NCBI GenBank assembly: GCA_900620265.3
Contig: UYNY03000014.1
Coordinates: forward strand, 1 to 63,937
DNA length: 63,937 bases
Reading direction: 5' to 3'
From: Nitrosopumilaceae archaeon
Lineage (GTDB): Archaea > Thermoproteota > Nitrososphaeria > Nitrososphaerales > Nitrosopumilaceae
In this document: in pieces, positions 16,805 through 27,739 of the stretch
How the letters are laid out: every line of letters begins with the position of its first letter
Numbering within the stretch: the first letter of the stretch is position 1
Translations under genes and position numbers: made by a program
Notes under the pieces: model-generated
What the model saw: only the letters and a program-made list of their open reading frames with translations
Told to the model about the DNA's origin: nothing
Database searches by the model: none

Positions 16805-18118
16805 GTGCGGCCCAGGGAGTCATACAGGAGGGTCTTTGCCAGCCTCAAGAGGCACCACAAGTGGTTCTCCGAGTCGATCCCGCTGATAGCCAGCGAGAAC
16901 ATCCCGAGCCCGGCGGTCCGCGAGGCCGTCGCCTCGGACTTTGGGAACAGGTACGCCGAGGGGTGGCCCGGCGAGCGGGTCTACGCGGGGTGCACGTACA
17001 TCGACGAGGTGGAGGAGGAGTGCATGGCGCTCGCAAGGAGGCTCTTCAAGGCGGGGTTCGCCGACGTGCGCCCCATATCCGGGGTGGTGGCCAACCTGGC
17101 CGTATACTCGGCGTTCTCGGACCCCGGGGACGTCATGGTGGCCCCCTCGATCCCGGCCGGCGGCCACATATCGCACGGCAAGAAGGAGCACTCCGGGACG
17201 GCGGGGCTGGTGCACGGGCTCGACGTCGAGTTCTACCCGTTTGACGCCGAGGAGATGTCGATCGACGTGGACAAGACAAGGAAGAAGGTCGACGCCCTGG
17301 CAAAGGAGGGGCGCGCGCCCAGGATCGCGATGCTCGGCGGATCGCTCTTCCTCTTCCCGCACCCCGTAAGGGAGCTGGCGCCCTTCCTAAAGGGGCACGG
17401 CGCGCACGTCAACTATGACGCGGCGCACGTGGCGGGGCTGGTGGCGGGCGGGCTCTTCCAGAGGCCGCTGGCGGAGGGCGCCGACACGATGACGCTGAGC
17501 ACGCACAAGACGCTCTTCGGGCCGCAGGGGGGGCTGGTCCTCGGATCAAAGGAGCACGCAGAGCCGCTCAAAAAGGCCACGTTCCCGGGGCTCACCAGCA
17601 GCCACCACGTCAACAACATGGCGGCAAAGGCGGTCGCGTTCGCAGAGGCGCTCGAGTTCGGGAAAAAGTACGCCGCCAAGGTCGTCTCAAACGCAAGGAC
17701 GCTCGCGGGGGCGCTCGCGTCCGAGGGGTTCAGGGTGCTCGGGGAGCGGCGCGGGTACACGGAGTCGCACCAGGTCGCAGTCGACGTCACCCGGATCTCC
17801 GACGGGGGCAGCATCGAGGCGCAGCTCGAAAAGGCCAACATCATCGTGAACAGGCAGCTGATCCCCGGCGACATACGCGCCGGCAGGAACTATCTGCGCC
17901 CCGGCGGCATACGGCTTGGCGTCTCGGAGGTGACGAGGCTCGGCATGGGCGCAGGCGAGATGAGGGAGATAGCATCGCTCATCTGGGGGGTGGCCGCCGG
18001 CGGCATGGATCCGGCGCGCGCCGCCAGGAGGGCCAGGGAGATGAGGAAGGGGTTCCAGAGGGCCCGCTTCTGCTTTGAGGGGTCGCGTGGCGCCTACGAG
18101 TACGTCAGGATGCGCTAA
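16805..18118 (+). CDS. glyA: Serine hydroxymethyltransferase
   Basis: 437 aa PLP enzyme joining serine and glycine to the one-carbon pool. Landmarks are IPLIASENIPSPAVREA near the N-terminus, GNRYAEGWPGERVYAGC, the PLP-lysine region TLSTHKTLFGPQGG, and RPGGIRLGVSEVTRLGM. The start is GTG at 16805, with GTTTTTAAGC upstream near 16775. The stop overlaps the DP2 stop by 3 nt (convergent). Confidence 0.94.
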   Translation: MRPRESYRRVFASLKRHHKWFSESIPLIASENIPSPAVREAVASDFGNRYAEGWPGERVYAGCTYIDEVEEECMALARRLFKAGFADVRPISGVVANLAVYSAFSDPGDVMVAPSIPAGGHISHGKKEHSGTAGLVHGLDVEFYPFDAEEMSIDVDKTRKKVDALAKEGRAPRIAMLGGSLFLFPHPVRELAPFLKGHGAHVNYDAAHVAGLVAGGLFQRPLAEGADTMTLSTHKTLFGPQGGLVLGSKEHAEPLKKATFPGLTSSHHVNNMAAKAVAFAEALEFGKKYAAKVVSNARTLAGALASEGFRVLGERRGYTESHQVAVDVTRISDGGSIEAQLEKANIIVNRQLIPGDIRAGRNYLRPGGIRLGVSEVTRLGMGAGEMREIASLIWGVAAGGMDPARAARRAREMRKGFQRARFCFEGSRGAYEYVRMR

Positions 18119-21100
18119 TAGTCGGTCAGGAGGGCCTGGCTGCCGGAGCTCTTGCCAAATACGAGGTCTATCTCGTCCGCAAGGGCGCCTATGCGGCCCC
18201 GCTGGTACCTGCCCACGTCGAACCTGTCCACGAGCGTCTCTGCCAGGTGGAGGTACTTTTCGACCGACGGGCGCGTGATGGTCGGCTTTAGGGGGATCTT
18301 GCACTTTGGGCAGTCCCCCGACAGGGTTATGCGCCTGTGCGTGGTGTTGCACCTGGTGCAGCGGAACTTTTGCCTCGCGAACGAGCGGAGGTTGCCCATG
18401 ATGTCGGGGACCAGGTGCGTCGAGATCACGTTCGAGACGATCTCCGAGGCGTCGACGGCCCGGATCATCTCGGCGTTCCGTATCTGCATGTCGCACTTGT
18501 CGAGCATCGAGTCGAGCGTCGCATAGGCGCTGCGCGCCCGGGCAGGCACGATCGAGGACGTCCCGTGGGTGCAGTGGTACCCCTCGAACGCCCCCTCGGT
18601 GTCGAGGCGGGACCGCGAGAGCTCGACGGACCCGACGTCGGACGCCTTTGGCGAGTCCATCGTGGACCTGAAGAACTCGAGCGGGAGGGACTCGGCCACC
18701 TCGAGGTTGTGCGCCTGCGGCTGCGACTCGTGCGGCAGCACCAGCGGCTGCACTATCAGGGGGGCGTCCATCAGCCCCCCTATGCGGTCAGAGAGGAAGC
18801 CCCTTGAAAAGTTGAGCAGCGAGTCGGCAAGCAGCATCAGCGAGTCGGCGTCGCCGTCGGCGTCGCGCCTCTTTGCCGAGTGCCAGTTGGGGGTCCCAAA
18901 GCAGACCTGCGTCTTTGCGTACCCGATTATCCGCCCCACGATCCCGACGGACGTGTGGGGGGCCAGCCCGACCACGAGGTGCCCCACCAGGTCCTCGGGC
19001 CTGGTGGCGCCGTAGAACGGCTTCCTTCCGTACAGGTTTACCAGCAGATAGTCGACATACTTTGCCGCCTCGACAAGGTACATGCCGGTATCAAGCGGGA
19101 TCACGACATCCTGCATCATCAGCTCGGCCTCCTGCGAGGGGTCCTCGAGCGGCTCGCCACGCGCGTCGTGCGTGTACCCGAGCTCGCGCAGCCTGGCCAC
19201 GGGGGTGCCTATCCAGGCGGGGCGGAACTGGGTGAGCGGCGAGTTGGTCGCGTCGAACCGGACCGTCCCGTCCTTGAAGGTCGTCAGGCCGTACTTTTGC
19301 CTCGCCAGCCCCTTCTCGAGCGGTTCCGCGGCCCTGTCCTGCCCTATCAGCTCGCCGACCCCCTTGAAGGGGTCCCTGGCGCGGGCGCGCGCCCTTTCCT
19401 GGGCGCGCGCAAGCTCCTCCCGGAGCGGGAAGGGCCTCCTCGAGTGGGCCGTCGTCCTGCGCCCGCACTTTGCGCACTCGGGGCCGCCTGCCGGGCCGCA
19501 GTCGCGGCACGTCCTCCGGACGGACGTCGTGCCGCCGCACCGGGGGCATGAGACGGCAAGCGCGGTGGCGCCGCACGCGTCACAGTACCTGTCCTGGATC
19601 GTCGCCTCGAACCCGGCCGCCCTTGAGGCCTTTATGATATCCTTGGTGGATCCGCCCCTCTCCCCCACCGGGAAGATGGCGTGCGCTGGCGGCCGCATCG
19701 AGCGCGGGGCGGCCTTTTCGGGCCTCCCGACGCGGACGCCGACGGAGGTGGACCACTTTGGACGGATAGTGATCCCCGACGCGGAGACGGCCTCATGTAC
19801 GGGGCCGTCCGGCATGTCGCCGGCGAGCAGCGCCCGCAGCACGAGCGCCTCGTCCCCCTCGACGAGGGCCCCGGACCCGCGCGCCCTGTGCGGGACGCCG
19901 AGCTTTTCGAGCGCCTCCTTTGCCCGCCCCCCGTACTCGAGGGACCCGTCCGGCCCGTCCCCGGCGCCCAGCAGAGACTCGAGGTCCTCGCGCGTGATCA
20001 CGTCCCAAAAGTAGAGGTGGCGCGGGTGCAGCGGGACGCCGGTCCTCCGGGCGTGGGCGAGCGCCTCGGCGGCGCCCGGGTCCCGGGGCAGGAGGTCGCC
20101 GGGGCAGGAGGCGCGCGCCTCGGCCTCCCAGAACTCCTCGACGAACCCCGACGGGACCAGCCTGGCGTTGTTCTCCACAAAGTCCCCCACGGAGACCAGC
20201 ACGTCCCCAAGGTACAGGATCTCCTCGATCCTGCCGCGCAGCTCCCGCGCATGGGCGACGTCCCGGACGCGCACCACGTCGCCCCCCTTGAGGCGGACGG
20301 TCGGCGTCTCGATCGAGTCGACGAAGGCGACGGTCGCCCCCTTGCCGGGCATGTCCGTCTTTATCTGGGTGCCGACGGTGACCGTGTGGTCGAGGATCTC
20401 GGCGGCCGCCGGGTGGAGGCCGGCCGCGGCGAACCCGGTGTTGCAGGCGCGGCCGTACCGGAGGCGGAAGCCGCCGGGCCTCTTTGGTATCGAGAGGACG
20501 GACCGGCCCGCTATCACCTCGCTCATCCTCTTGGCGGCCGCGTCCTCGCGGTCGTCCCCCGTCTGGACGGCCCCGCGCAGGTCGGCCAGCCACCCCCACC
20601 CCTCCATCTTGTAGAGCTCGATCCTCTTGAGGAGCTTCTTTGACCTGCCTATCAGGCCGTCGTTGAGGACGCGGAGGGCGCCGCCCCTGACGCGGTCCGT
20701 CTTTATCCGGGCCATCCCCTTGTGGTTGACGACCTCAAAGGGGTCGGTGTCCACCCCGTCCAGCTCGACTGGGAGGTTCGATATGACGCGCTCGATGTCC
20801 TCGTCCAGTATGTGGAACTGGAACGCCGACTCCCTCTCGTAGATGCGCAGCTCCTCGACGAACCGGCCCGTCTCGTCGTCAAAGCAGTCGGCCTGGTACC
20901 TGTCGAGCCCGGCCGCCCTCCTGACGTGGTCCGCTATCAGCATGGTGACTGCCGACTCTGTGCCCCCCGCCGACCTCATCGGGCCCGCTATCGAGACGGA
21001 GAGGTATTTCGTCCCGTCCCGGTTCTCCTTTATGCAGACCTCGCTTATCCCCTGCAGGGGGGCTATGGTGACCCCCTCGGTGACGACTGCCAGCCCCACC

Positions 21101-21405
21101 CGGACTGCCAGGTCCAGCCGCTCCTCGAGCGGGGTGTCGGGCTCGGAGTGCTCGCCGAGGGCTATCTCCCTTGCCAGGGTGAGGGCGGAGAGCTCCTTGC
21201 CGTTGACGGCCAGCAGGTCCCGGAGGTGGTCGGTTATGTCGATGTCGTGCATCTTGGAGACGCGATCGGCCAGATCAAAGACGATCTTGGGCTCCACCTC
21301 GGCGGATCCGTCGGCCAGGGTGGCCTTGGCGGCCGAGGCCGCCTCGTGGGCCTTGAAGGTGTCCTCGGCCAGCCCCTCATAGTACGTGCGGTAGCGGGCG
21401 GGCAT
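18115..21405 (-). CDS. polC: DNA polymerase D large subunit DP2
   Basis: 1096 aa catalytic subunit of family D DNA polymerase. Near the C-terminus the active-site motif reads RRDADGDADSLML, with the two key Asp of the DGD core kept; Pyrococcus DP2 has RRNCDGDED at this place. Zinc sites are seen in CDACGATALAVSCPRC, in CAKCGR, and in the final CTRCNTT/CPKC pair. No intein is present. The ATG at 21405 is chosen since upstream sequence is antisense to the GGGP synthase intergenic region. The small subunit DP1 is at 25552. Confidence 0.96.
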   Translation of the reverse strand: MPARYRTYYEGLAEDTFKAHEAASAAKATLADGSAEVEPKIVFDLADRVSKMHDIDITDHLRDLLAVNGKELSALTLAREIALGEHSEPDTPLEERLDLAVRVGLAVVTEGVTIAPLQGISEVCIKENRDGTKYLSVSIAGPMRSAGGTESAVTMLIADHVRRAAGLDRYQADCFDDETGRFVEELRIYERESAFQFHILDEDIERVISNLPVELDGVDTDPFEVVNHKGMARIKTDRVRGGALRVLNDGLIGRSKKLLKRIELYKMEGWGWLADLRGAVQTGDDREDAAAKRMSEVIAGRSVLSIPKRPGGFRLRYGRACNTGFAAAGLHPAAAEILDHTVTVGTQIKTDMPGKGATVAFVDSIETPTVRLKGGDVVRVRDVAHARELRGRIEEILYLGDVLVSVGDFVENNARLVPSGFVEEFWEAEARASCPGDLLPRDPGAAEALAHARRTGVPLHPRHLYFWDVITREDLESLLGAGDGPDGSLEYGGRAKEALEKLGVPHRARGSGALVEGDEALVLRALLAGDMPDGPVHEAVSASGITIRPKWSTSVGVRVGRPEKAAPRSMRPPAHAIFPVGERGGSTKDIIKASRAAGFEATIQDRYCDACGATALAVSCPRCGGTTSVRRTCRDCGPAGGPECAKCGRRTTAHSRRPFPLREELARAQERARARARDPFKGVGELIGQDRAAEPLEKGLARQKYGLTTFKDGTVRFDATNSPLTQFRPAWIGTPVARLRELGYTHDARGEPLEDPSQEAELMMQDVVIPLDTGMYLVEAAKYVDYLLVNLYGRKPFYGATRPEDLVGHLVVGLAPHTSVGIVGRIIGYAKTQVCFGTPNWHSAKRRDADGDADSLMLLADSLLNFSRGFLSDRIGGLMDAPLIVQPLVLPHESQPQAHNLEVAESLPLEFFRSTMDSPKASDVGSVELSRSRLDTEGAFEGYHCTHGTSSIVPARARSAYATLDSMLDKCDMQIRNAEMIRAVDASEIVSNVISTHLVPDIMGNLRSFARQKFRCTRCNTTHRRITLSGDCPKCKIPLKPTITRPSVEKYLHLAETLVDRFDVGRYQRGRIGALADEIDLVFGKSSGSQALLTDY

Positions 21406-21430
21406 GGGGGTACCCTCCAGGTGGCACAGC

Positions 21431-22219
21431 TCAGGCACGCCGGCGCCGCCCGGGTGCCCGCTTATTGATCTTGGGGCGCGCGCCGCGCGCCGCGCGGACG
21501 ATGGGGCCCAGCCTGCCGGCCCCGCCAGCCTCGAGCAGGGTGCCCACGACGACCGCGTCGGCGCCGGCCTCTGCCGCCGCCCTGGCTGCCCGGGCGTCCC
21601 GGATCCCGCCCCCAACTATGAGAAAGCCGTCGGTGGCGGCCCGGACGGCCCTTATCATCCCGGGGGGGACGGCCTTTTTGGCCCCGGAGCCGGCCTCGAG
21701 GTAGACGAACCTCATCCCCATGAAGCGGGCGGCGAGCGCGTATGCTGCGGCGATCTGGGGCTTTTCGTGCGGGATGCCGCGCGCGGAGCCGACGAACCAC
21801 GCGGACGTCCCCTCGCCCACCACCAGGTACGCGGTGGGGAGCGGCTCGAGGCCGAGGCGCAGCACGTTGGGGGCCCCGAGCGCCTGCGCCTGGGAGATAA
21901 AGTAGGGGTTCTCCGAGTTCAAGAGCGAGCTAAAGAGGATCGCGTCGGCGCCGGGGACGACGCCGGTCACGTTGCCCGGAAAGAGGATCACGGGGATGCC
22001 GGCGGCCTTCTTTACGTCCCTTACGACGCGGGCCATCCCGAACTGGTCGGTTGCAGACGAGCCGCCGACCAGGATGGCAGAGGCGCCCGCGCGCTCTGCC
22101 GCAAGGGCAAGCTCGACGGGCTCGGAGGGCCGCGAGGGCTCGGAGTCGATCAGCGCAAAGAGCAGCGCGCCCCCGCGCCGCTCCCTCTTGAGAAGTTCCT
22201 CGACCCTGCCGGCGGCCAC
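21431..22219 (-). CDS. Geranylgeranylglyceryl phosphate synthase
   Basis: 262 aa TIM-barrel prenyltransferase that makes the first ether bond of archaeal lipids. Motifs are LIDSEPSR, ILVGGSSATDQF, ILFPGNVTGV, YLEAGSGA and VGGGIRDARAA. The basic C-terminal tail is short and low complexity. It lies 25 nt upstream of DP2 on the same strand and may share its transcript. Confidence 0.93.
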   Translation of the reverse strand: MAAGRVEELLKRERRGGALLFALIDSEPSRPSEPVELALAAERAGASAILVGGSSATDQFGMARVVRDVKKAAGIPVILFPGNVTGVVPGADAILFSSLLNSENPYFISQAQALGAPNVLRLGLEPLPTAYLVVGEGTSAWFVGSARGIPHEKPQIAAAYALAARFMGMRFVYLEAGSGAKKAVPPGMIRAVRAATDGFLIVGGGIRDARAARAAAEAGADAVVVGTLLEAGGAGRLGPIVRAARGARPKINKRAPGRRRRA

Positions 22220-22284
22220 GGCGGTGGCCCCGGGGGCACCGCTTTAAAGTTTAATTGGGCGCGGTAATACAGGGTTGTATAGCT

Positions 22285-22647
22285 ATGGAGGGGGAGGGAA
22301 AGCCAAGATTTAACGAGGTGATCAGTGATATCATAGAGAAATCACTGTTTACAGAGCGTCAGATTGAAATTATTTTAAACAAGAGGGGCATTCGAAAAGG
22401 CTCGTTCCGGATATCCCGGGGTGCGTATTACAGGCAGGTGGCCCAGTCCAGGGAGAAGACGGTCTCGTTCCTGTACTCGCTGGTGCTTTTGAGGGGGCTG
22501 GGCGTGCTGGAGGACGGTGATATTGACGTGATGGACAGGCTCTCCGAACAGATCCGTGTGATAAACGAGGGTGATATATTCCCCGAGCACGTGGATGATG
22601 TGATGCGCAGGCTGGACGAGTTCGTCCGCGACGCCTGCAGGATGTGA
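22285..22647 (+). CDS. Conserved small helical protein, probable regulator
   Basis: 120 aa. Almost all helical, with FTERQIEIILNKRGI and KGSFRISRGAYYRQVAQSREK, which resemble a helix-turn-helix of the kind found in archaeal regulators. No family name can be given. The ATG at 22285 is favoured over an upstream start at 22255 because TTTAAAGTTTAATT lies at 22243-22254. Base composition here is less G+C-rich than in neighbouring genes. Confidence 0.65.
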   Translation: MEGEGKPRFNEVISDIIEKSLFTERQIEIILNKRGIRKGSFRISRGAYYRQVAQSREKTVSFLYSLVLLRGLGVLEDGDIDVMDRLSEQIRVINEGDIFPEHVDDVMRRLDEFVRDACRM

Positions 22648-22773
22648 TTACGGCGTGCCGGGGACGTGATGGCGCCTCCCGCCGGGACGTGACTCTTTGT
22701 GTGAGATTGTTGCGTGAGGTGTGAAACAAAGTTGTTCGCTCTTGATATATCACACCGGGTGGAGGGGGTGGTG

Positions 22774-23304
22774 ATGGAGATAGTGATCCCCGACCTGGTG
22801 GTGTGGTCGGCCCTGGCGTTCGTCGGGGGCGCCGCCGGGATGTACCTCGTCTTCAGGCTGAGGCCGCAGGGCAGGGGCGGGGCAGGCGTGGATCCGGGGC
22901 AGATGGAGTACATTGAGAGGGAGATGGCACGCATGATGATACGGATCGACGCGATGGAGATCGAGGGCATGGCGCCAGAGGCGCCGCCGGGCGTGCCTGC
23001 ACCGGTGGCTCCGGCGGTGGAGCCGGCGCCGGAGGCGCCAAGGCGGGCGGCGCCAGAGCCTGTCATCGTACGCCAGAGCACGGTCGAGTCCGTGTTGCAG
23101 GCCGTCACAACCGGCACAAAGACGTCACGTGATATTGAAATCACACTGGGGAAGAGCAGGGAGCATACATCACGCCTGATGAACAACCTCTACAGGGACG
23201 GGCTGTTGGAGAGGAACAAGCAGTCAAAGCCGTACAGGTACTCGATCACGGAGAAGGGCCGGGCTAGGCTGAACGCCGGGGTCCTGGGCGCCGTCGCCGC
23301 ATAG
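22774..23304 (+). CDS. Membrane-anchored winged-helix protein
   Basis: 176 aa. One TM segment at residues 5-26 is followed by a Pro/Ala-rich linker (about 70-95) and a C-terminal winged helix: VLQAVTTGTKTSRDIEITLGKSREHTSRLMNNLYRDGLL, then YRYSITEKGRARL. It is a likely membrane-tethered DNA-binding protein. The ATG at 22774 lies 27 nt from GATATATC, so the transcript is probably leaderless. An earlier in-frame start at 22714 is upstream of the TATA box. Confidence 0.72.
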   Translation: MEIVIPDLVVWSALAFVGGAAGMYLVFRLRPQGRGGAGVDPGQMEYIEREMARMMIRIDAMEIEGMAPEAPPGVPAPVAPAVEPAPEAPRRAAPEPVIVRQSTVESVLQAVTTGTKTSRDIEITLGKSREHTSRLMNNLYRDGLLERNKQSKPYRYSITEKGRARLNAGVLGAVAA

Positions 23305-23927: not shown

Positions 23928-24081
23928 CTTGGGATCTGAGGGGTATGGGGGCCAATAGTTTAACAGATCCCGGGATGGGTGTTAACATCTAGGGTTGTTA
24001 ATATTGACCCAATGGGGCGTGCCTGCACCGATATCAGGTCCTAACAGGCGATCCGGAGGGGGCCACCCTCCGGAGGGGGTT

Positions 24082-24120
24082 TTCACGCCTAGAGTGGAAA
24101 TAAAGGGGTCAAAATGGCCT
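24082..24120 (+). repeat. 39-bp direct repeat 1 with ORB-like element
   Basis: Perfectly identical to 24144-24182. The core AGAGTGGAAATAAAGGGGTC at 24091-24110 resembles the archaeal origin recognition box (CCAGTGGAAAC then AAAGGGG), including the G-string to one side. Confidence 0.82.
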
Positions 24121-24143
24121 TTTTAACACTGTTAGGAGGCAGG

Positions 24144-24182
24144 TTCACGCCTAGAGTGGAAATAAAGGGGTCAAAATGGCCT
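24144..24182 (+). repeat. 39-bp direct repeat 2 with ORB-like element
   Basis: Second copy, 62 bp after the first and in the same direction. The core is at 24153-24172. Confidence 0.82.
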
Positions 24183-24220
24183 CCTCTGGACCCCAGATTC
24201 ACACCAAGTTAACAGACCCA

Positions 24221-24240
24221 GACACCTCTATTTCCACTCT
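24221..24240 (-). repeat. Inverted ORB-like element
   Basis: On the minus strand it reads AGAGTGGAAATAGAGGTGTC, matching the direct copies with three changes. It points towards the two direct repeats and sits beside the AT-rich block. Confidence 0.72.
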
Positions 24241-24349
24241 CTATTCTTAAATTTTTTTTTTCAGAGTGAAAATAATTGATTATAACGGCAAACTAAAGCT
24301 GCCAAGCCTTCTAAACACGACGCAGGATACGTCTGGTATTGGTCTGGGC

Positions 24350-24367
24350 GAGTGGAAACGGGGGTGT
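24350..24367 (+). repeat. Partial ORB-like element at the 5' end of orc1/cdc6
   Basis: GAGTGGAAACGGGGGTGT keeps the GTGGAAAC core and a G-string. It overlaps the proposed GTG start of orc1/cdc6, so binding of Orc1 here could repress its own gene. Confidence 0.55.
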
Positions 24368-25575
24368 GTGGGACGCCTGACCCGGTCGACGAGCTGCTTG
24401 ATGCTGCGGAGAGGGGTACCTCGATACTGGCAGACAGGAGCGTCCTGCACTTTAGCCACATGCCGGAGAGCATACCCCACCGGGAGAAGGAGCAGAAGAA
24501 GGTGACCCAGTCCCTGCTGCCGATCCTAAAACACTCAAAGCCCTCGAACCTGCTCGTCTACGGCAAGCCGGGCACCGGCAAGACCCTCGTCGTAAAGAAG
24601 GTGATCTCAAAGATCCGGCAGCGGGTCGAAAAGTCAGAGTACCCCGTAAAACTCGTCTACGTGAACGCAAAGAACGACTCGACCACCACCGGCCTGCTGG
24701 TGAGCGCCGGCAGGCAGATCGGGCTTGACGAGGGCGCCCTGCCGACCACCGGCCTCTCGACCGGCGAGGTCTTCAAGAGGATCCTGGCATCCATCATAAA
24801 GGGCGGCCACAACGTGGTGCTGGTCATAGACGAGATAGACTATCTTGCCCAGCTCATACTAAAGACGCACAAGGACACCCTCTACCAGCTCACGAGGGCC
24901 AACGACCAGCTGGACAGCGGCTCGCTCACCCTGGTGGGCATATCAAACGATCTCAAGTTCAAGGAGCTGCTCGACGCCCGGGTCCTGAGCAGCCTGAGCG
25001 AGGAGGAGGTGGTCTTCCTGAGTTATGACGTGGCCCAGCTGACCAGGATACTGGAGGAGCGGGTGGGCGCCGCGTTCGTCCCGGGGGCCGTCGAGGAGTC
25101 GGCGCTCTCGCTGTGCGCCGCCATGGCGGCCAAGATACACGGCGATGCCAGGCGGGCCATCGACCTCGTCCGCGTGGCCGGCGAGATAGCAGAGCGCGAG
25201 CAGGCACCCAGGGTCACCGACGCGCACGTCCGGGAGGCGGCCGTCAAGATAGAGGAGAACAAGGAGGAGGCCGTACTCCGCTCCTACCCGCTGCACGAGA
25301 AGATGGTGATACTGGCAGTGGCCGACTCTGGCGGCACATCCACTGGGGGCATATACGCCGCCTACAAGAAGCTCTGCAACGAGACGGCCCAGGACCCCCT
25401 CACCCAGAGGAGGGTCACGCAGATGCTCAACGAGGCCGAGGCGTCGGGGCTGGTCGACGGCCAGATAGTCCACCAGGGGATGCACGGCAGGACCAAAAAG
25501 TACAGGATTACCGTGCCCGGCCAGATGATCAAAAAGGCGTTCGGGGACGACTCAGTACTGAAGGATCTCGTCTGA
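24352..25575 (+). CDS. cdc6: Orc1/Cdc6 replication initiator
   Basis: 407 aa. AAA+ ATPase with Walker A YGKPGTGKTLV (about residues 67-77), Walker B VVLVIDEIDYL, the sensor region LVGISNDLKF, and a C-terminal winged helix ending in KKYRITVPGQM. It binds ORB elements and loads MCM. The GTG at 24352 is the earliest standard start in frame; a GTG four codons later is also possible. It lies directly beside the ORB repeats. The last 24 nt overlap the convergent DP1 gene. Confidence 0.95.
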   Translation: METGVCGTPDPVDELLDAAERGTSILADRSVLHFSHMPESIPHREKEQKKVTQSLLPILKHSKPSNLLVYGKPGTGKTLVVKKVISKIRQRVEKSEYPVKLVYVNAKNDSTTTGLLVSAGRQIGLDEGALPTTGLSTGEVFKRILASIIKGGHNVVLVIDEIDYLAQLILKTHKDTLYQLTRANDQLDSGSLTLVGISNDLKFKELLDARVLSSLSEEEVVFLSYDVAQLTRILEERVGAAFVPGAVEESALSLCAAMAAKIHGDARRAIDLVRVAGEIAEREQAPRVTDAHVREAAVKIEENKEEAVLRSYPLHEKMVILAVADSGGTSTGGIYAAYKKLCNETAQDPLTQRRVTQMLNEAEASGLVDGQIVHQGMHGRTKKYRITVPGQMIKKAFGDDSVLKDLV

Positions 25576-26973
25576 GTTGCCGCCAAAGTCCTTTAGCAGG
25601 AACTTGAACGTCTTTAGGTTCAGCAGGACGGCGATCCCGGGGTTGGGCACCATCCCGACGCTGGCCTGGAAGGGCGTCTGCCTCTGCCAGGACCCAGAGT
25701 TGACAAGGGACGCCCCCCGGTAGGCGCCCAGCTCCATCTTGTGGACGTGCCCCACGTGGAAGACGTCCGGCACGCCCTCGAGCACCAGCAGGTCCTCCGG
25801 GCCCGGCGCCACCGGGGTCTGGCCCCCGTACGTGGGGCAGACGTGCCGGGCGCGGAGCAGGAGCCTCATCGCGCCGACCGGCGAGTCATAGCTGAGCCCC
25901 GGGGTCGTCTTTACGATATCATCGATGCTCTGCCCGTGGAACATGGCGACCCTCACCCCGTTCAGCGAGACGGTGGCGGGGTTGCCCACCATCACGACGT
26001 TCTCCCTCTCCCACAGCCCCCCGGCGTACTTTCTTGGTATGGCCGGCTGGGGGAGGGCCCTCCTGCCGGGGTCGTGGTTGCCGGGCGCCACCACTATCCT
26101 GACGTGGGAGGGGATCCCGCCAAGCAGCTCGTCGGCCCTTGCAAGCTGCTCCTCCGCGGTCTGCTGCTCCAGCTCCCTGTCCTGGCCCGGATAGATGCCG
26201 ACCCCGTCGACGACGTCGCCGCACACGAGGACGAACCTGACGCGCCTGGCGACGGGATCGGGGCCCGACAGCCACGAGACGAACTCTGAGAACTCCTCCT
26301 CCATAAAGTACCTGCTCCCCACGTGCAGGTCCGAGAGGAAGACGGCATACTCCTCGGTGGACGACCTCCTCCCCTGCTCGTTCGGAACCTCGGGCAGGAC
26401 GATCTCCTGTATGACCCCGCCGCGCTGCCCCGGCGTGACCCTTGCCATCACCACCTGGTCGACGAGCAGCGAGCCGGCCGCCTCCATCGGCCCCCCCTCA
26501 AAGACGGCCCCCTCGATGGTCCCGGACGGGTCCTCGAGGCCTATCCGGGCGATCTTCTTGTCGGCCGACTTTGAGGACACCAGCCCGCAGACGTACCCCT
26601 CCTCCTTGAGGTTCCCTATCTGCCGGAGCTTGGCAGCCTCCGGGCGCGCCGAGATTATCCTGCGGAGCTTTTCATACCTGCTTGCGAACAGGTCCCTGAA
26701 CGAGCCGCCCCCCGCCAGGACCGCCGGGGTGGGGTCAAAGAGCACCCCGAGGTCGGCGCGAGGCGGCTCGCCGCCCCCCAGCCCGAGGCCCTCCTCCAGG
26801 TCCCCGACCAGTATCTGGAAGACGCCCCCGCGCGACTTTGAGCGGACCGCCTCCTTTACCGCCCTGGCGGCCGCGTCCACGTCGATCTCCTGCAGCATCC
26901 TGAACGCGTCCGGGTGTATCTGGAAGCCCCGGGAGAGCGCATAGTCAAGGGCCGCCGTCAGCCTCCTGTCCAC
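25552..26973 (-). CDS. polB: DNA polymerase D small subunit DP1 (3'-5' exonuclease)
   Basis: 473 aa. An OB-fold (about residues 140-210) precedes a calcineurin-like phosphodiesterase domain with all metal motifs: LSDLHVGS, CGDVVDG, PGNHDPG, FHGQSIDD and GHVHK. The exonuclease should therefore be active. The start is GTG at 26973, with TTAACTTAAACC centred about 27 nt upstream; no ATG fits. Together with DP2 (18115) it forms PolD. Confidence 0.94.
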   Translation of the reverse strand: MDRRLTAALDYALSRGFQIHPDAFRMLQEIDVDAAARAVKEAVRSKSRGGVFQILVGDLEEGLGLGGGEPPRADLGVLFDPTPAVLAGGGSFRDLFASRYEKLRRIISARPEAAKLRQIGNLKEEGYVCGLVSSKSADKKIARIGLEDPSGTIEGAVFEGGPMEAAGSLLVDQVVMARVTPGQRGGVIQEIVLPEVPNEQGRRSSTEEYAVFLSDLHVGSRYFMEEEFSEFVSWLSGPDPVARRVRFVLVCGDVVDGVGIYPGQDRELEQQTAEEQLARADELLGGIPSHVRIVVAPGNHDPGRRALPQPAIPRKYAGGLWERENVVMVGNPATVSLNGVRVAMFHGQSIDDIVKTTPGLSYDSPVGAMRLLLRARHVCPTYGGQTPVAPGPEDLLVLEGVPDVFHVGHVHKMELGAYRGASLVNSGSWQRQTPFQASVGMVPNPGIAVLLNLKTFKFLLKDFGGNSDEILQY

Positions 26974-27019
26974 GCGGCGCGGGCCCGCGCCGCTTAACTT
27001 AAACCAAGCCGCGGCGCGC

Positions 27020-27739
27020 CTAGCCGCGCTCCCACTGCCACCTATAGTTGGCGTACGAGTCGGGGCGGTGGCTCCCGAGCACCGCGACGCACATGTCGGA
27101 GAACTCCATCCCCTCGAGGTCCCGGACGGTGCCGTCAAAGCGCGACTCTGACTCTGTGGTGAGGCGCTCAAAGACGGACGCCCGCACCGAGGACGTCTCA
27201 AGGCCCCCCTCCCTCAGGTACCTGGCCGCGTCCGACGGCATGAACTGGAGGTCCGGCCTTGACGGCCACGGCCTCGGCACCAGAAAGACGCAGAGCCCGG
27301 CCGAGAGGGCGTCCCTCATCTCCTCCTTCTTCCCCTCTATGGGGCCCGTGACGTGCATGGTGATGACGCGGGACTTGTCAAGCGGGATCCGCGTCCGGGC
27401 GGCGGCCACCTGGACGGCGCTGATCCCCGGCACCAGCTCGACCTCGCCGAATATCTCCGTGAGCCTGTCGACAACCTCGGACTCTGAAAAGCTCACGTCC
27501 CCCGTGAACGGCACGGCCAGCGACCTCTCCCCCAGCGGCAGGACGGACCGGTACGCCTCCTCCTGGGTCGACATGTTCACCTCGCGCACGTCCTTGCCGG
27601 CAGTAAGGTGCGCGACGGTGGCAAGCGTGTACGAGTGGCCGATTATGACATCCGAGGCCGAGATTGCGCGCGCCGCCTCCTCCGTGACGCACCCCGGCGC
27701 GCCCGGCCCGACGCCGACCGCAAAGACCCTACCTGCCAC
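27020..27739 (-). CDS. cbiE: Cobalt-precorrin-7 C5-methyltransferase
   Basis: 239 aa tetrapyrrole methyltransferase. The N-terminal VFAVGVGPGAPG is the SAM-binding loop, and IIGHSYTL, LVPGISAVQVAAAR and VPRPWPSRPDLQFMPSDAARYL follow the CbiE pattern. It works in cobalamin synthesis. It overlaps the 3' end of the upstream PH-like gene by 11 nt. No other cobalamin gene is in the window. Confidence 0.84.
   Translation of the reverse strand: MAGRVFAVGVGPGAPGCVTEEAARAISASDVIIGHSYTLATVAHLTAGKDVREVNMSTQEEAYRSVLPLGERSLAVPFTGDVSFSESEVVDRLTEIFGEVELVPGISAVQVAAARTRIPLDKSRVITMHVTGPIEGKKEEMRDALSAGLCVFLVPRPWPSRPDLQFMPSDAARYLREGGLETSSVRASVFERLTTESESRFDGTVRDLEGMEFSDMCVAVLGSHRPDSYANYRWQWERG

Follow-up and report, generated by a model that had tools for sequence, protein, structure and literature searches.

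A probable ORB-type chromosomal origin of Nitrosopumilaceae with a conserved TTAACA array and a linked winged-helix gene

Introduction

Archaeal origins of the ORB type, such as oriC1 of Sulfolobus, Pyrococcus and haloarchaea, combine the ORB sequence and its G-string with an adjacent initiator gene and an AT-rich element between inverted ORBs. In Sulfolobus, the unwinding element lies between ORB2 and ORB3, which direct MCM to it, and a second conserved motif beside the ORBs, ucm, has a separate binding protein, UBP, whose gene was placed by the authors only in Desulfurococcales and Sulfolobales (PMC12141716). Second origin motifs, and the proteins that go with them, are of current interest in the field of archaeal replication, and the same 2025 paper raises the question of analogous origin proteins in archaea that are more divergent. 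A thaumarchaeal ORB origin beside cdc6 is already known: one origin, mapped by marker frequency, is cited for N. maritimus in PMC4010727, and ORB repeats precede cdc in N. maritimus and N. cavascurensis (PMC5797428).

Here we describe a locus in a window of 63,937 nucleotides (contig C14, UYNY03000014.1), which is part of a 2.0-Mb draft genome of 113 contigs. Named relatives used for comparison belong to Nitrosopumilus, Nitrosarchaeum and other Nitrosopumilaceae; throughout, family denotes Nitrosopumilaceae, class Nitrososphaeria and phylum Thermoproteota. The locus shares with the N. maritimus origin its family, its position beside orc1/cdc6 and its ORB repeats. An array of TTAACA elements, linkage to a gene for a winged-helix protein (P0002) and overlap of an ORB with the orc1 start codon are absent from the descriptions in PMC4010727 and PMC5797428, and we found neither the array nor the P0002 linkage described in the literature searched, although the 2013 N. 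maritimus mapping paper may partly cover all of these features. Relative to ORB-type oriC1, whose four hallmarks it shares, the window adds the TTAACA array, a fixed ORB1/ORB2 spacing of 61-62 bp and the placement of ORB4 on the orc1 start; what goes beyond the ORB model is the TTAACA array and the P0002 linkage. The locus provides a named motif array, fixed in its geometry, together with a named candidate gene that accompanies the origin across the phylum; both can be tested directly in cultured ammonia-oxidising archaea.

Results

ORBs and an AT-rich element adjoin orc1/cdc6

The product of the orc1/cdc6 gene scores 355 bits against TIGR02928 (cut-off 181), is the sole match above cut-off in this draft genome, and aligns over its full length with the Orc1 structures 2qby_A and 2v1u_A. 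The initial annotation, made from the sequence alone, had the repeats abutting an orc1/cdc6 gene, an identity now backed by TIGR02928 and by the domains (Table 1). The genes for the polD subunits flank the origin and orc1 on both sides, and the 3' ends of orc1 and DP1 share 24 bases (25552-25575) on opposite strands. A small AbrB/MazE-like ORF (PF04014, 23400-23549, + strand) adjoins P0002 and possibly encodes an antitoxin or an AbrB-type regulator; immediately to the left of P0002 lie a further ORF of winged-helix type, weakly matching a Csa3-like protein (22714-23304, + strand), and an unassigned ORF (22255-22647, + strand). Distant second Orc1/Cdc6 copies with ~30% identity occur in G034, G008, G206 and other relatives, and may be borne by mobile elements.

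Table 1 Positions of the origin elements and context genes in the window
Feature	Position	Strand	Remarks
Probable replication origin region	23928..24363	.	Intergenic, between the divergent winged-helix gene and orc1/cdc6; block conserved in ~104 family loci
orc1/cdc6 initiator gene	24364..25575	+	Start GTG 24364, or 24352; TIGR02928; AAA+, lid and winged-helix domains
Winged-helix protein gene P0002	23544..23927	-	127 aa; divergent partner of orc1; Pfam Penicillinase_R barely above cut-off; predicted wHTH
DNA polymerase D small subunit DP1	25552..27048	-	PF04042; context gene
DNA polymerase D large subunit DP2	18115..21447	-	PF24846, PF24844, PF03833; context gene
39-bp repeat, copy 1, with ORB1	24082..24120	+	ORB1 core 24088-24110; perfect direct repeat
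39-bp repeat, copy 2, with ORB2	24144..24182	+	ORB2 core 24150-24172; perfect direct repeat, 62 bp from copy 1
ORB3, inverted	24221..24240	-	90% complementary
ORB4	24350..24372	+	Overlaps orc1 start codon; 24350-24367 has one mismatch to GAGTGGAAANNNNGGGGT
AT-rich block, putative DNA unwinding element	24241..24300	.	77% AT; T10 at 24252-24261
TTAACA element 1	23960..23965	+	~10 bp off family position
Element 2, palindromic TGTTAACA	23980..23987	.	
TTAACA element 3	23996..24001	-	
Degenerate TTAACA-like element CTAACA	24041..24046	+	Conserved -54 position
TTAACA-C-TGTTAG inverted pair	24123..24135	.	Between ORB1 and ORB2
Degenerate TTAACA-like element TTCACA	24198..24203	+	
TTAACA element	24209..24214	+	Between ORB2 and ORB3

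The two perfect 39-bp direct repeats, the inverted ORB-like element, the AT-rich block with its T10 flanked by the repeats, and the fourth site over the initiator start codon, all picked out in the initial annotation, are present as listed in Table 1. The cores that it had likened to the archaeal ORB agree with the published consensus (Ori-Finder 2 common motif, PMC4164010) at 18 of 20 positions. The region thereby has the constituents of an ORB-type origin: several consensus ORBs, an adjacent orc1/cdc6 and an AT-rich element between ORB3(-) and ORB4(+). Only 12 of the 63,877 60-mers in the window are more AT-rich than the one starting at 24241, and the block adjoining the AT-rich element, of the AATTAATTACAAACTAAA type, is conserved across the family. 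Genome-wide there are five ORB-like sites with at most one mismatch, four of them at the origin, inside 280 bp. With two mismatches the genome-wide total is 9, against 10 in the reversed control; the evidence for the ORBs is therefore their clustering, layout and conservation, not single sites.

The origin plan is conserved, nearly unique and coincides with a skew break

The ORB pair is found at the same place in related genomes, with the plan recurring in about 100 Nitrosopumilaceae loci: 104 family loci with both genes share the order ORB1(+), ORB2(+), ORB3(-), AT-rich block, and ORB4(+) ending at the orc1 start. ORB1 and ORB2 are spaced by 62 bp in 66 loci and by 61 bp in 30, which together make up all 96 family loci measured, and the ORB layout also recurs in other families of Nitrososphaeria. 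ORB-like repeats are not spread over many unrelated loci; the ORB pair was matched in 51 of 51 whole family genomes, nearly always at the origin and rarely elsewhere, and the reversed control gave 0.

The local skew of the window itself is noisy. A closed relative, G086 (1.4996 Mb; Orc1 65% identical to that of the window), was analysed over its complete sequence with a two-arm step model in 10-kb bins and fixed-site block permutation. For purine and G-C skew in G086 the model places the best breaks at 830 kb, at a distance of 2.1 kb from orc1; the break at the orc1 site has p=0.0025 for G-C and p<0.0005 for purine and A-T. The antipode of the orc1 site is at 78 kb, close to the disparity minima at 79-80 kb, and gene-strand bias alone breaks 72 kb off the orc1 site. 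The three highest ORB scores in this genome (38, 32 and 27 bits) are all at the orc1 site, the next best being 14.5. The skew inflection on which the initial annotation had staked its reading is thus seen, for purine and G-C, in this one closed relative.

ORB4 over the start codon would also be accounted for if there were no origin here and the ORB-like repeats were solely autoregulatory operators of orc1. We regard this as very improbable in view of the G086 skew break, the agreement of the repeats with the archaeal ORB consensus, the separation of the ORBs from orc1 in four families, and the single mapped origin of N. maritimus as cited in PMC4010727. Taken together, these results indicate that the locus is almost certainly the main, and probably the single, chromosomal origin of this ammonia-oxidising-type archaeon, where Orc1 would bind the ORBs and a second factor the TTAACA array.

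ORB4 covers the orc1 start

Among 79 relatives (74 with ATG, 5 with GTG), a single T separates the ORB4 string GGTGTGTG[AG]G from the orc1 start codon. The corresponding codon of the window reads ACG (24373), so translation must begin at GTG 24364 or 24352, both of which lie within ORB4. ORB4 is the weakest of the ORBs, and in G086 it scores 10.9 bits, under four chance sites. Because ORB4 sits on the start codon, Orc1 bound there would overlie the beginning of its own reading frame and should restrain its own expression.

A TTAACA array is interleaved with the ORBs

Several TTAACA elements had been noted in the initial annotation as lying beyond known ORB models, and these proved to be conserved at fixed positions among the ORBs in the family. 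TTAACA/TGTTAA occurs six times in 23928-24363, against 0.28 expected from dinucleotide shuffles (p=0.0005). Each of 101 family loci carries 6-13 copies (mean 10.7, against 0.97 expected), at fixed offsets from ORB1 of about -145, -115, -99, -54, +35, +102, +113 and +122; most of these positions are retained in the window, with degenerate copies at -54, +35 and +103. G086 has just two 400-bp TTAACA peaks, the origin and a tandem repeat, and the window's genome has convergent TTAACA/TGTTAA pairs within 30 bp at four places, the origin accounting for two. Most other families of Nitrososphaeria have 3-17 TTAACA copies per stretch examined, whereas the origin stretches of family f4 have none and those of f8 and f10 none or one. 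Outside the class, TTAACA enrichment (p<0.05) was absent in 12 of 14 sampled gaps and present in f21 and f28. Such an array would require a second binding factor besides Orc1.

The arrangement resembles Sulfolobus ucm/UBP in having a second conserved origin motif beside the ORBs and, presumptively here, a separate binding protein; TTAACA differs from ucm in sequence, copy number and location. The elements could accordingly be sites for a nucleoid-associated or replication protein that is UBP-like in function and unrelated to P0002, a reading that we hold to be plausible, if short of probable. The established non-ORB origin motif of Sulfolobus with its own protein (PMC12141716) speaks for it, as does the presence of the array mainly in one class although the P0002 family is phylum-wide. 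However, UBP has hundreds of binding sites in the genome, whereas clusters of TTAACA are here nearly confined to the origin, and ucm lies within the unwinding element, TTAACA outside it.

P0002 is linked to the origin across the phylum

The P0002 product scores 23.2 against Pfam Penicillinase_R (cut-off 22.6), 9 of 20 homologues match that family at E of 0.01, and its resemblance to the repressor families Penicillinase_R and CopY is weak. The recognition helix S-Y-L-R is invariant across 20 homologues. The structure model predicts a wHTH at residues 55-119, which makes the winged helix C-terminal, and a structure search of P0002 returned generic winged-helix matches only, none reaching E of 0.001. 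Repressors of the BlaI/MecI/CopY group have an N-terminal winged helix followed by a C-terminal dimerisation domain. P0002 shares with them the weak Pfam match and a similar winged-helix fold; in contrast, its model has an N-terminal beta-beta-alpha part and then the winged helix, and thus departs from their domain order. A winged-helix protein gene is also linked to an origin in the case of WhiP at Sulfolobus oriC3. By description the two cases are alike in this linkage and differ in that the ORBs remain here and that P0002 is a small, 127-aa protein with a single winged helix.

Of the 42 genera sampled in Nitrososphaeria, 39 yielded a P0002 homologue, as did 132 of 200 genomes from the phylum as a whole. 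Comparison of gene positions showed that, beyond the class, at least ten further families have P0002 as the divergent neighbour of orc1. When the two genes are separated, the ORBs lie beside P0002 in four families (f15, f34, f36, f41) and beside orc1 in f19, f24, f38 and genome G181; ORB matches with at most one mismatch, 28 of 28 in 24 genomes, fall within ~2 kb of P0002 or orc1, against one in the reversed control. Since the ORBs accompany either gene once the two are separated, P0002 is tied to the origin and does not just travel with orc1; it may help to locate origins in genomes with orc1 away from the ORBs. Where ORBs adjoin P0002 away from orc1, the origin would be active at P0002. Genomes of the f36 type (G278, G343) are of this kind, with orc1 at a distance of 41-91 kb. 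At one such putative P0002-side origin (G278), skew over 400 kb only gave a keto minimum 27 kb from the site and a G-C minimum between the site and orc1.

Being predicted to bind DNA, adjacent to the array and origin-linked, P0002 is a candidate for the TTAACA-binding protein, albeit a tentative one: most sampled loci outside the class that have P0002 at the origin are without TTAACA enrichment. In G181 (L261, L262) the TTAACA array is at the origin with orc1, and the P0002 gene is on another contig with no enrichment in its upstream region. We rejected a strict coupling of TTAACA to P0002, which neither G181 nor most loci beyond the class show. Differences in the recognition helix gave no clean pattern as a predictor of TTAACA, the helix being divergent in f7, yet the array kept, and typical in f4, yet the array lacking.

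Several TTAACA elements lie between the P0002 start codon and ORB1, and TTAACA-N-TGTTA inverted pairs are located between ORB1 and ORB2. With the weak resemblance of P0002 to Penicillinase_R and CopY, this is consistent with a real origin in which the TTAACA elements take no direct part in replication and serve as operators of the P0002 gene, and perhaps of orc1, with P0002 as the autorepressor that binds them. We consider this unlikely, because the G181 array remains with the origin and orc1 while P0002, its upstream region unenriched, is on the other contig, and because about ten copies among the ORBs exceed the needs of a simple operator. A broader proposal makes P0002 an origin factor of Thermoproteota that has so far escaped recognition (except in lineages without P0002), encoded at the origin since before the classes concerned diverged, independent of the location of Orc1, acting with Orc1 and reading TTAACA in Nitrososphaeria; we put this forward as a possibility on which we remain doubtful.

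A model of the origin

From the layout and the known systems we infer each binding and replication step at the origin. Orc1 from the adjacent gene would bind all four ORBs, and the inverted pair ORB3/ORB4 flanking the AT-rich block would set the place of MCM helicase loading and first DNA opening. The tandem ORB1/ORB2, with a spacing of 62 bp or about six helical turns, would contribute extra Orc1 binding, and a second factor, for which P0002 is one uncertain candidate, would bind the TTAACA array interleaved with ORB1 to ORB3. By analogy with Sulfolobus ORB2/ORB3, ORB3/ORB4 are likely the core and ORB1/ORB2 auxiliary sites.

The 11-bp Sulfolobus ucm, ATTATACAAAC, is absent from the window, whose putative unwinding element reads GATTATAACGGCAAACTAAAG. 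Family loci share TACAAACT in the AT-rich block, which resembles ucm; we set aside homology as likely coincidence, since the window lacks the string and other families do not keep it at that position. The AT-rich block of family loci (for example L023 and L090) holds a near-invariant ATAATTAATTACAAACTAAACTA, ucm-like, altered in the window and likewise not kept at that position by other families, which could be a promoter element.
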